Under the pieces are notes generated by a model. The model saw only the letters and a list, made by a program, of their open reading frames with translations, had not been told where the DNA came from and ran no database searches. The translations under genes were made by a program, and so were the position numbers. Positions 4,586 through 7,556 of a DNA stretch of 44,652 bases are shown here, one piece after another; position 1 is the first letter of the stretch, and each line of letters opens with the position of its first letter. The DNA comes from Gemmatimonadetes bacterium 13_1_20CM_4_69_16 (lineage in GTDB: Bacteria; Gemmatimonadota; Gemmatimonadetes; Gemmatimonadales; GWC2-71-9): NCBI GenBank assembly GCA_001919865.1, contig MNIR01000012.1, positions 1-44,652 on the forward strand, in the 5' to 3' direction.

Positions 4586-4733
4586 GGCACCCCGTTGACT
4601 GCGCGCAACAGCGTTGCGCGCTCCCACCCGCCGATGCGTTGCGCGGCCGCAAGTATCGACCGGTCGCGACGAGCCCCCTGATCTCGGAACGGAACTTGCG
4701 CGCGTAGCGCAGCGGACACCTCGCGAGGGAGCC

Positions 4734-5930
4734 ATGCGGGTACCGAGCTACGCAGCCACTGTCGCGCTTACGCTGTCGCTGGTCGCCTGCCAGGAAGCGG
4801 CGCGCTCCGTTGCACCGGTGTCCGATTCCGGGGGATCGGCACAGCGGAGCGGCCCCGAGACCGTGCCGGGGCAGTACATCGTCGTGTTCGGTGACGGCGT
4901 TGCCGATCCGGCCGCGCTGGCGCCGGCGCTCGTGACGAGCGCCGGCGGTACGCTGCTGCACGTCTATACGAGCGCCATCAAGGGTTTCGCGGCTCGGCTC
5001 CCTGCGTTGGCGGTCGACGCCCTCCGACTGAACCCGGCCGTCGCCTCGATCGAGCCGGATCAGGTGATGCGCGCCGATGTCACTCAGAGCATGGACGCGA
5101 ACGGCGATCCGTGGGGGCTGGATCGCATCGACCAGGGCGCGCTGCCGCTCTCCGGCACGTACACCTACACGTCGACCGGCGCGGGCGTGCACGCCTATAT
5201 CATCGACACCGGGATCTGGACGCTGCATCCCGAGTTCGGTGGCCGGGCGGACGACGTGTACGACGCCCTGCTCGGGGTTGCGGCCGGGACGGGCGAGGAC
5301 TGTAACGGCCACGGGACCCATGTCGCGGGGACGATCGGCGCGGCGACGTACGGCGTGGCCAAGGCGGTTTCCCTGCACGGGGTGCGGGTGCTAAGCTGCG
5401 CCGGCATCGGCCTCAACTCCGACGTGATCGCCGGTGTCGATTGGGTGACGGCAAACCACGTCACCCCGGCTGTGGCGAACATGTCGCTCGGCGGCGGCAA
5501 GTCGCCGGCGCTCGACCAGGCCGTCACCAACTTGTGGAACTCCGGGGTGTTCCTCGCGGTCGCTGCGGGGAACGACAACGTCGATGCCTGCACCGAGTCG
5601 CCGTCGGGTGCTCCCAGCGTCTTCACGGTCGCGGCGTCCGACAAGACCGACGCTAAGGCGTCCTATTCGAACTGGGGCAGCTGCGTGGAAGCGTACGGGC
5701 CCGGATCGGCGATCAAATCGACCTACCTCGGCGGGACTACCATGACGCTGAGCGGCACGTCGATGGCGACGCCGCACGTGGTTGGTGTCGCGGCGCTTTA
5801 CAAGGCGACCAACGGCGACCAGCCGTCCGCGACCGTCTCCGATTGGCTCATCACGAACGCCACCGCTGGCGTGATCACCGGGAATCCGTCCGGGACGCCG
5901 AACCGCTTGCTCTTCAAGTCGACGCTGTAA
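4734..5930 (+). CDS. Subtilisin-like serine protease (S8), lipoprotein
   Basis: 398 residues. The start at 4734 is preferred over upstream in-frame codons because it gives a lipoprotein signal (MRVPSYAATVALTLSLVAC, Cys 19 as lipid site) and has GAGGGAG just before it. Residues ~45-115 form an I9-type inhibitory propeptide (GQYIVVFGDG ... VASIEPDQ). The catalytic domain follows, with Asp in AYIIDTGIW (~160), His in NGHGTHVAGTIG (~193), the oxyanion Asn in AVAAGNDN (~280) and Ser in LSGTSMATPHVVG (~340). It belongs to the proteinase-K-like S8A group by these motifs. It probably acts on the outer face of a membrane. The stop codon abuts the stop of the convergent small membrane gene at 5931. Confidence 0.93.
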   Translation: MRVPSYAATVALTLSLVACQEAARSVAPVSDSGGSAQRSGPETVPGQYIVVFGDGVADPAALAPALVTSAGGTLLHVYTSAIKGFAARLPALAVDALRLNPAVASIEPDQVMRADVTQSMDANGDPWGLDRIDQGALPLSGTYTYTSTGAGVHAYIIDTGIWTLHPEFGGRADDVYDALLGVAAGTGEDCNGHGTHVAGTIGAATYGVAKAVSLHGVRVLSCAGIGLNSDVIAGVDWVTANHVTPAVANMSLGGGKSPALDQAVTNLWNSGVFLAVAAGNDNVDACTESPSGAPSVFTVAASDKTDAKASYSNWGSCVEAYGPGSAIKSTYLGGTTMTLSGTSMATPHVVGVAALYKATNGDQPSATVSDWLITNATAGVITGNPSGTPNRLLFKSTL

Positions 5931-6092
5931 TCAAGACAGGAACTTCGGCGCCCCCACTACGATCCGCCGCGCGAGCAGCACCACCGCGGCGGCGTACAAC
6001 AGGTGCACCGGCCCGTTGCCCACGTGGGCCACGAAAACGATAACTATCCACAGCGCCAGCAGCCCGATCGCAGCGACCAGCGTCAGGTTCAT
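5931..6092 (-). CDS. 53-residue membrane protein, lmo0937/DUF5670-like
   Basis: A short gene with an excellent ribosome site (GGAGG, seven bases before the ATG at 6092). The product is MNLTLVAAIGLLALWIVIVF, then a short polar turn (VAHVGNGPVH), a second hydrophobic helix (LLYAAAVVLLARRIVVG) and a short tail. Two helices around a Gly/His turn and ~50 residues are the layout of the lmo0937/DUF5670 family of small membrane proteins, often linked to envelope stress. The family match rests on architecture and general motif resemblance. Its stop directly abuts the stop of the subtilisin gene. Its upstream region overlaps the promoter of the putative RNA at 6173 on the other strand. Confidence 0.75.
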   Translation of the reverse strand: MNLTLVAAIGLLALWIVIVFVAHVGNGPVHLLYAAAVVLLARRIVVGAPKFLS

Positions 6093-6139: not shown

Positions 6140-6167
6140 TTGACGTTTCCCGCCCACGTCGTATTGT
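6140..6167 (+). promoter_or_regulatory. Promoter of the structured RNA
   Basis: TTGACG at 6140-6145 and TATTGT at 6162-6167, separated by 16 bases, resemble a housekeeping-sigma promoter. The expected start (~6173-6176) coincides with the first paired base of the long stem of the RNA. Confidence 0.6.
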
Positions 6168-6172
6168 ACTTC

Positions 6173-6320
6173 AGGGACGAAGAGAAGAATTATTGAGCCA
6201 ACAGGCTCGATTGTGGACCCAGATACTGTGACCGATGTCATGCCCCCTTCGAGGGGAAGACAGACGCCATGGTGAGGGACCAGTCATTACCTTCGGGCTT
6301 CAATAATCCTCTTCGTTCCT
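6173..6320 (+). ncRNA. Candidate structured small RNA (~148 nt)
   Basis: The two ends pair over more than 20 base pairs. 6173-6184 (AGGGACGAAGAG) pairs with 6309-6320; after a small bulge, 6189-6196 (ATTATTGA) pairs with 6300-6307, and GCC 6197-6199 can pair with GGC 6296-6298. Inside are local hairpins: GAGCC-AACA-GGCTC (6195-6208, competing with the closing stem), CCCCT-TCG-AGGGG near 6244-6256 enclosed by TGTC/GACA, and TGGT-GAGGG-ACCA. A promoter lies just upstream and a terminator with a T-tract follows at 6328-6372. There is no convincing open reading frame. A long closing stem, an inner bubble and a distal hairpin resemble 6S RNA in outline, but the length is short and no conserved 6S sequence could be verified. 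Treat it as an unknown small RNA. Confidence 0.6.
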
Positions 6321-6327
6321 GATGTAC

Positions 6328-6372
6328 CGGTCGGCCGGGTCGTGTTACAGCGATGCCGGCCGATCGTGTTTT
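6328..6372 (+). terminator. Intrinsic terminator of the small RNA
   Basis: CGGTCGGCCGG (6328-6338) pairs with CCGGCCGATCG (6356-6366), 11 pairs with one G-U, followed by TGTTTT. The loop contains the stop codon of the convergent exchanger gene, so the same hairpin may also end that transcript. Confidence 0.65.
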
Positions 6373-7556
6373 CCGCGTGGCGTTCGCACCGTCTCCCAAA
6401 AGTATTTCGGCGCCAGCAACGCGTGCCCCCGCACCACGAACCCGATCAGCAGGATCACGATCCAGATGCCGTAGGCGACCGCCACCTCGTCGCGCAGCGT
6501 GGGCCGCAGGAACTGCGCGAGCCACAGCACGAAGATGATGGTCGCGTCGAGCCAGTCGAACTCCATGTTCGCGAGCAGGATCACGGCCAGGCCCGACTGC
6601 AGCAGCGTGAGCAGCAGCTCGAGGCGTTGCGCGTCGTCGAATCGGAAATCCAGCCACACCCCGTGGTGACGCAAGCTCGAGTAGCCGTACACGAGCGGGA
6701 TCATGGCGGCGAGCACGGTCCACTGGTTGATGTTGCTCGAGACCATGTTCATGAGGGCCATCGGCGCGTGGCTCACGCGTCTGGCCCAATAGAACGCGGA
6801 GACCTTCTCGGGGAACTCGGAGAGGAACGGCGCCACCCACTGCACCAGCACGAACTGGCTCACGCCGAACACGCCGGCGACCGCGAGCATGGATTCCAGA
6901 AACGGGTGGGCGGTCGCGTACAGCAGCCCGCCGCCGGCCGCGAACAGCCCGCCGATGGCCGCCTTCTGGCGCCAGCCCGGTTGGCGGTAGGCCCAGCGCG
7001 ACACCAGCGGCGCGTCGCCCAGGTGGTCAGCGCCCCGGGGCGCGACGCGGAACAGCGTCCACAGGTAGGCGACATACAGGGCGAGCAGCACGCCCGCGTC
7101 GACCCAGCTGAAGCTCCCCCGCAGTAGGATCACGATGAAATAGAGCAGCGGTGGCAGCAGCCCCACGACCTCCACCGCGTGCTCGCGTTCCAGTCGGATG
7201 GTAGGCAGTCGCTCCGTCGCCGTCTTCCGGCCCGCGGTTGCGAAGACGACGTACACCATCGGCCAGCCGAGGCCGAGCAGCAGCCGGATGGCGCCGGTCA
7301 AGTTGGCGATCGCGAGGTGGGCACGGGTGGGATCGCGTCCGGCGTCCCAGGCGATCACGGCTTCGACGGCAAATTCGGGCAGGGTCTGCAGCCACGCGAG
7401 GATCGCGAGGGCGAGGCCCTGGGAGATGAGGAACTGCGCGGCTTCCGCTCCCCACGCGACCAGGAACGCCGACGCGAGGATGCTGGGGAACGTCCACAGC
7501 GCGGACAGCGCGGAGCCTCCCGCCGTGGACAACAAAGCGAGTAGCTTTAGTTTCAC
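6345..7556 (-). CDS. Sodium/calcium exchanger (CaCA) family membrane protein
   Basis: 403 residues with about ten hydrophobic segments. The two internally related alpha-repeats of the cation/Ca2+ exchanger superfamily are visible. The first has LAWLQTLPEFAVEAVIAW (~52-69) and AIANLTGAIRLLLGLGWP (~82-100). The second has APFLSEFPEKVSAFYWARR (~237-255) and ALMNMVSSNINQWTVL (~262-277). In each, an acidic residue in a PE/SEFPE motif and an Asn in the second helix correspond to the ion-binding positions of this family. It is expected to exchange a divalent cation against Na+ or H+ in the inner membrane. The start is GTG at 7556 with no Shine-Dalgarno and a TATCTT box eight bases upstream. It diverges from folE. 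Confidence 0.85.
   Translation of the reverse strand: MKLKLLALLSTAGGSALSALWTFPSILASAFLVAWGAEAAQFLISQGLALAILAWLQTLPEFAVEAVIAWDAGRDPTRAHLAIANLTGAIRLLLGLGWPMVYVVFATAGRKTATERLPTIRLEREHAVEVVGLLPPLLYFIVILLRGSFSWVDAGVLLALYVAYLWTLFRVAPRGADHLGDAPLVSRWAYRQPGWRQKAAIGGLFAAGGGLLYATAHPFLESMLAVAGVFGVSQFVLVQWVAPFLSEFPEKVSAFYWARRVSHAPMALMNMVSSNINQWTVLAAMIPLVYGYSSLRHHGVWLDFRFDDAQRLELLLTLLQSGLAVILLANMEFDWLDATIIFVLWLAQFLRPTLRDEVAVAYGIWIVILLIGFVVRGHALLAPKYFWETVRTPRGKHDRPASL

Follow-up and report, generated by a model that had tools for sequence, protein, structure and literature searches.

A 6S RNA of the Gemmatimonadota, recognized by homology and mostly missed by the standard Rfam model

What kind of RNA is encoded between a subtilase gene and a Na/Ca exchanger gene in Gemmatimonadetes bacterium 13_1_20CM_4_69_16? 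A first-pass annotation of the window (the whole 44,652-nt stretch of DNA that was analysed) had pointed there to an RNA of 6S-like outline with a promoter and a terminator of its own. 6S RNA imitates an open promoter and restrains RNA polymerase, and the model 6S RNAs are about 180–200 nt long. Taken as a whole, our explanation, which we hold with high confidence, is that the locus is a 6S RNA (ssrS) gene, whose product would act and be released in the 6S manner. The features on which the argument draws are as follows.

4614-5930, + strand: subtilase gene, upstream
5931-6092, − strand: 53-aa hydrophobic membrane ORF, DUF5670-like (Pfam PF18919), a divergent upstream neighbour and not part of the RNA
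6140-6145, + strand: -35 element TTGACG, by sequence; TTGAC kept in homologs
6162-6167, + strand: -10 element TATTGT after a 16-base spacer, by sequence; TAnnnT kept in homologs
6173-6320, + strand: 6S RNA (ssrS) by covariance-model matches and covariation, about 148 nt, predicted start at about A6173/G6174
6173-6184, + strand: closing (terminal) stem, 5′ strand, partner 6309-6320 (covariation)
6189-6199, + strand: helix P2 ("downstream helix"), 5′ strand AUUAUUGAGCC, partner 6296-6307 (94.6–95.9% of cells paired)
6189-6202, + strand: predicted product RNA (pRNA) template, +1 at C6202, pRNA 5′-GUUGGCUCAAUAAU-3′, deduced from the homologous pRNAs of B. subtilis and E. coli
6204-6210, + strand: helix of the central-bubble-collapse type, 5′ strand (distal 5′ central bubble), partner 6293-6299 (pairing, folding)
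6214-6282, + strand: apical (internal) arm, 6214-6220/6276-6282, 6225-6230/6268-6273, 6236-6239/6259-6262 and 6243-6246/6253-6256 (covariation)
6293-6299, + strand: helix of the central-bubble-collapse type, 3′ strand, overlapping the P2 3′ strand (pairing, folding)
6296-6307, + strand: helix P2, 3′ strand GGCUUCAAUAAU (conservation, pairing)
6309-6320, + strand: closing (terminal) stem, 3′ strand (covariation)
6326-6372, + strand: intrinsic terminator, hairpin 6326-6369 and U-run 6367-6372 (fold)
6345-7556, strand opposite to the RNA: Na/Ca exchanger gene, next downstream

The promoter TTGACG-16-TATTGT that had been proposed is present at 6140-6167, and the first paired base, A6173/G6174, falls 6–7 bases 3′ of the -10 element, in agreement with the start that had been predicted there. 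At least 9 of 12 positions match TTGACA/TATAAT in 63 of 90 upstream regions of homologs, compared to 3% of shuffles, and the mean sigma70-type score of these 90 regions is 8.8 out of 12 against 6.8 in shuffles. Folding of the whole unit extends the 11-pair hairpin described earlier to 18 pairs, 11 of which form an unbroken GC-rich run, and the hairpin (6326-6369) overlaps the expected TGTTTT (6367-6372). Downstream U-runs resembling intrinsic terminators occur in 49 of 91 loci, about half, so across loci the terminator is less uniformly recognizable than the promoter. From these signals, transcription is predicted to start at a housekeeping-type promoter and to end at an intrinsic terminator. 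As for the neighbours, the Pfam match of the 53-aa ORF is weak (E 0.083, below the cut-off), and a similar divergent ORF stands no more than 140 bases upstream of the 6S RNA in 49 of 91 loci (tblastn). A GTP cyclohydrolase I gene also lies downstream of the RNA.

The predicted transcript region is strongly structured. Positions 6173-6322 fold with −59.1 kcal/mol, compared to −42.6 ± 3.9 for shuffled sequences (z −4.27, 0 of 200 as good), and the ends, which had been described as pairing over more than 20 bp, do so over 12 bp (6173-6184/6309-6320) and 12 more (6187-6199/6296-6308). In an alignment of 53 non-redundant sequences of the window's family, RNAalifold returned a single unbranched structure with double-sided changes in 24 of 39 pairs; when this structure was completed, 94.5% of cells were paired, and 27 of 46 pairs carried double-sided changes, in 158 cells. 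Shuffled alignments, which leave relatedness in place, reached 88.3% of cells and 11.8 double-sided pairs, none of the 500 attaining the observed values, and sliding the partners by 1–3 columns, which keeps relatedness too, left only 40–51% of cells paired. Lack of covariation, which the first-pass annotation had named as evidence against its reading, is therefore not what the alignment holds. The closing stem shows double-sided changes in 9 of 11 consensus pairs with 95.7% of cells paired, and in the apical arm most pairs show them. The RNA is thus a rod of closing stem, central bubble and apical arm, without branches. Its bubble motif, UGAGCC-purine-A opposite GG..UUCAA, is nearly invariant in the 53 family sequences and in 69 wider ones; UUGAGCC of the P2 5′ strand is likewise nearly invariant. 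A local hairpin that could be drawn in the bubble, GAGCC-AACA-GGCUC, is not general, given that its second arm reads GGUCC and not GGCUC in half of the family.

A BLASTN search of the 102 genomes of the family returned homologs from 83 of them, spread over 36 of 41 genera, a result that together with the fold and the compensatory changes bears out the 148-base structured RNA that had been proposed. Two covariance models, R1 from sequences of the window's family only and the phylum-wide R2, match it at 6173-6321 with E 6e-31 and 3e-28, respectively; Infernal E-values of R1, R2 and the R3 described below are rough, and the argument rests on bit scores and positions. R1 has matches in 230 of the 246 class genomes, nearly always in single copy, and R2, run on a sample of 150 genomes from across the phylum, finds the RNA in 147, including 5 of 6 outside the class. 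The few genomes without it may reflect incomplete assemblies or filters. Among the records listed by name, those carrying the core motif are nearly all Gemmatimonadetes or Gemmatimonadota, with a few labelled "unidentified bacterium", "bacterium" or Bacterium HR33.

Is this conserved RNA 6S RNA? The check suggested by the first-pass annotation, a search with the Rfam 6S model RF00013, gave a divided answer. In the window itself no Rfam family reached its own cut-off, and RF00013 was absent even at E ≤ 10, yet the same RNA is matched elsewhere. In the window's own family RF00013 picks out the RNA with 30.9 bits (E 0.008) in L061 and with 28.9 bits (E 0.02) in L067, where no other Rfam family reaches E 3 in the 27.6 kb scanned; in sister families it scores 23–29 bits at the RNA; and a homolog of the class outside the window's family, L071, passes the curated cut-off of 46.4 bits, a database criterion and not a biological one, with 56.6 bits. 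Across the 246 class genomes RF00013 gives a weak or better match in 14, above the cut-off in 2, and it coincides in place with R1 in G107 (56.6 bits, above the cut-off; R1 E 1e-16), G242, G302, G149, G155, G203, G133, G291 and G267. We take the miss in the window to mean that the model does not reach this far, not that a structural feature is absent.

The reverse comparison was made with a third model, R3, of 60 Gemmatimonadota sequences without those that RF00013 had matched in the class scan. R2 already held L072, itself above the RF00013 cut-off, hence R3 was built without it; given that R3 contains L061 and L067, with their sub-threshold matches, its freedom from RF00013 matches holds only with respect to the class scan. 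Both sequences that pass the cut-off of RF00013 are recovered by R3, L071 with 102.5 bits and L072 with 59.1. When R3 is run on 50 kb of E. coli K-12, ssrS comes out on top (22.2 bits, E 0.002; the next match scores 11.1), at full length and with boundaries within the annotated gene. The ssrS scores are modest, 10.6 bits with R1 and 22–24 with R3 and R2. The motifs that align with 6S RNA are UGAGCCGAUA in the bubble strand, CAUGC...GAAG in the apical arm and GGUUCAA in the partner strand. Homology, the unbranched rod, the bubble motif, the housekeeping promoter and a gene usually single in each genome are all as in 6S RNA. Because the structure covaries, the promoter is conserved and both Rfam 6S sequences and E. 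coli ssrS are homologous to it, we call the RNA by homology a 6S RNA and not only 6S-like, as its outline had first suggested, even though the sequence in the window does not pass the Rfam threshold.

Some matches stand apart. L072:995-1145(-), in genome G111, is above the RF00013 cut-off and differs from the other Gemmatimonadota copies, with UUUCGAUCCUAAA in place of UUUUGAGCCAACA; it may lie on a foreign contig of that assembly. In two sister-family genomes purine-rich repeats lie just downstream of the 6S RNA (L074:1718-1974, L076:1718-1969), and the plant miRNA and other eukaryotic Rfam matches that fall in them are chance. A resemblance to SRP domain IV, noticed by eye from a GGGGAAGGCAG motif, was discarded, the apical motif aligning with CAUGC..GAAG of 6S RNA and no Rfam SRP match being present.

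Set beside RF00013 and E. coli ssrS, the RNA has the same rod of closing stem, P2, central bubble and apical arm, the same UGAGCC(G/A)A bubble motif paired with GG(N)UUCAA and the same CAUGC...GAAG apical motif (here CAUGCCC..GGGGAAG), UUGAGCC occurs in both, and the alignment runs from end to end. It differs in its length of about 148 nt, with a shorter closing stem and apical arm, and in an additional base in GGGCUUCAA. These departures in length and sequence from RF00013 are what would speak for a 6S-like RNA of changed function, as in Ms1, which binds core RNA polymerase, is structurally related to 6S RNA and is found in Actinobacteria, some groups of which lack 6S (PMC9130861). Such an RNA would share the outline and not serve as a pRNA template, whereas the template and its partner strand (UUGAGCC..., GGGCUUCAA) are the most conserved part here and are common to E. 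coli ssrS; we consider an Ms1-like function very improbable. That RF00013 misses the window and, at the cut-off, most of the class might instead suggest a different structured trans-acting RNA that had merely converged on the outline, but convergence would hardly account for the shared primary-sequence motifs, the placing of both models at the same loci and ssrS as the top E. coli match, and we give it almost no credence.

The intergenic position and the terminator would also suit a leader that regulates a neighbouring gene in cis (a riboswitch or attenuator) or a part of a mobile inverted repeat, the latter a source of doubt that had been raised at the outset. A leader is rejected because the next gene, for the Na/Ca exchanger, is encoded on the opposite strand. 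A mobile repeat is rejected because the RNA is single copy in its own 2.8-Mb draft genome, as nearly always elsewhere; moreover, the closing stem covaries. Among relatives a gene in the same orientation downstream of the RNA was not the rule, and sets of nearly identical copies within a genome were not seen. We regard either origin as extremely unlikely.

On the reading as 6S RNA, homology also indicates how the molecule would work. 6S RNA leaves the polymerase after the enzyme has used the 5′ strand of the bubble and of P2 as template for a short pRNA and P2 has opened; in B. subtilis 6S-1 the freed P2 3′ strand pairs with the distal 5′ bubble in the "central bubble collapse helix", where changing a tandem G:U to G:C shortens the pRNAs (PMC8876501). 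In the present RNA the counterpart of that helix (6204-6210/6293-6299) is paired in 97.3% of cells, and its mean probability rises from 0.33 in the free RNA to 0.77–0.80 with the template blocked. A helix of the collapse type thus exists and is conserved, and by analogy with B. subtilis 6S-1 it would act in release. E. coli differs, having a 9-bp 3′-bubble hairpin (PMC8876501). The two central positions of the helix read CU in 26, UC in 26, UU in 1 and CC in 0 of the 53 sequences, and UC or CU in 108 of the 111 distinct motif matches; since they are CU or UC and never CC, one G:U and one G:C pair are kept. Exactly one of each is found in 52 of the 53 family sequences, as opposed to the tandem G:U of B. 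subtilis, whose 6S-1 RNA shares the distal 5′ bubble/P2 3′ strand helix (PMC8876501) and is longer. A further difference from B. subtilis is that the window's own genome yielded no second 6S paralog at the sensitivity used.

The template AUUAUUGAGCCAAC predicts the pRNA GUUGGCUCAAUAAU from C6202. In the relatives, UUGAGCC-AAC would give GUUGGCUCA and UUGAGCC-GAU would give AUCGGCUCA, as in E. coli, whose pRNA starts AUCGGCUCAGGGGACU (compared here in the form AUCGGCUCA). Most relatives have the AAC start, with 72 AAC, 39 GAU and 0 mixed among the 111 motif matches, and wider alignments add a few GAC, AAU and UAC templates. The predicted start is therefore usually GUU and not AUC as in E. coli, resembling B. 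subtilis 6S-1, whose template also ends in AAC and whose G-started pRNA is GUUCGGUCAAAACU, with the start GUUCGGUCA set against the AAC template (PMC12005410).

From membership in the 6S family, binding to RNA polymerase, accumulation in stationary phase and pRNA synthesis would be expected. The RNA would fill the active site of the housekeeping-sigma holoenzyme, mimicking an open promoter, and while bound would lower transcription, chiefly in stationary phase. When nutrients return, the polymerase would start at C6202 and transcribe the bubble's 5′ side into 5′-GUUGGCUCAAUAAU. This synthesis would open P2; the P2 3′ strand, now free, would form the helix 6204-6210/6293-6299 with the distal 5′ bubble, and the RNA would leave the polymerase. 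A further suggestion, which we put forward tentatively and think rather doubtful, is that within this one phylum 6S RNA has switched repeatedly between G-started (GUU..., B. subtilis type) and A-started (AUC..., E. coli type) pRNA, with template positions +1 and +3 changing in step, and that exchange of CU and UC has preserved exactly one G:U and one G:C in the release helix. If true, Gemmatimonadota would be a natural experiment on the tuning of initiating-nucleotide sensing and release strength.

The RNA in the window is, by homology, a further member of the 6S family, which the standard model misses in almost the whole phylum Gemmatimonadota. That model makes 6S RNA look absent, with 2 of 246 class genomes passing the Rfam cut-off, while the lineage model R2 finds it in 147 of 150 across the phylum. 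An annotation gap is thereby filled in a common soil phylum, with a warning that RF00013 alone is poor ground for calling 6S RNA absent, and a large natural alignment becomes available for testing both the model of release through a collapse helix and how the start nucleotide of the pRNA is chosen. Our search for literature pairing 6S RNA with Gemmatimonadetes, Gemmatimonas or Gemmatimonadota returned none; the main survey, "Dissemination of 6S RNA among bacteria", lay outside it and may already list the phylum, and so a first description is not claimed.

A few genomes carry more than one copy. G110 has two diverged 6S copies, L273:801-953(-) and L274:801-956(+), each followed by a same-strand tRNA gene 8–10 bases downstream, and these are possibly 6S paralogs co-transcribed with tRNA. 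In G061, of the window's own family, a normal 6S RNA is accompanied by a second, diverged 6S-like copy that scores 44.5 bits with R3 (the copies lie at L271:801-958(+) and L272:801-947(-)), and G256 and G300 have two R1 matches each.
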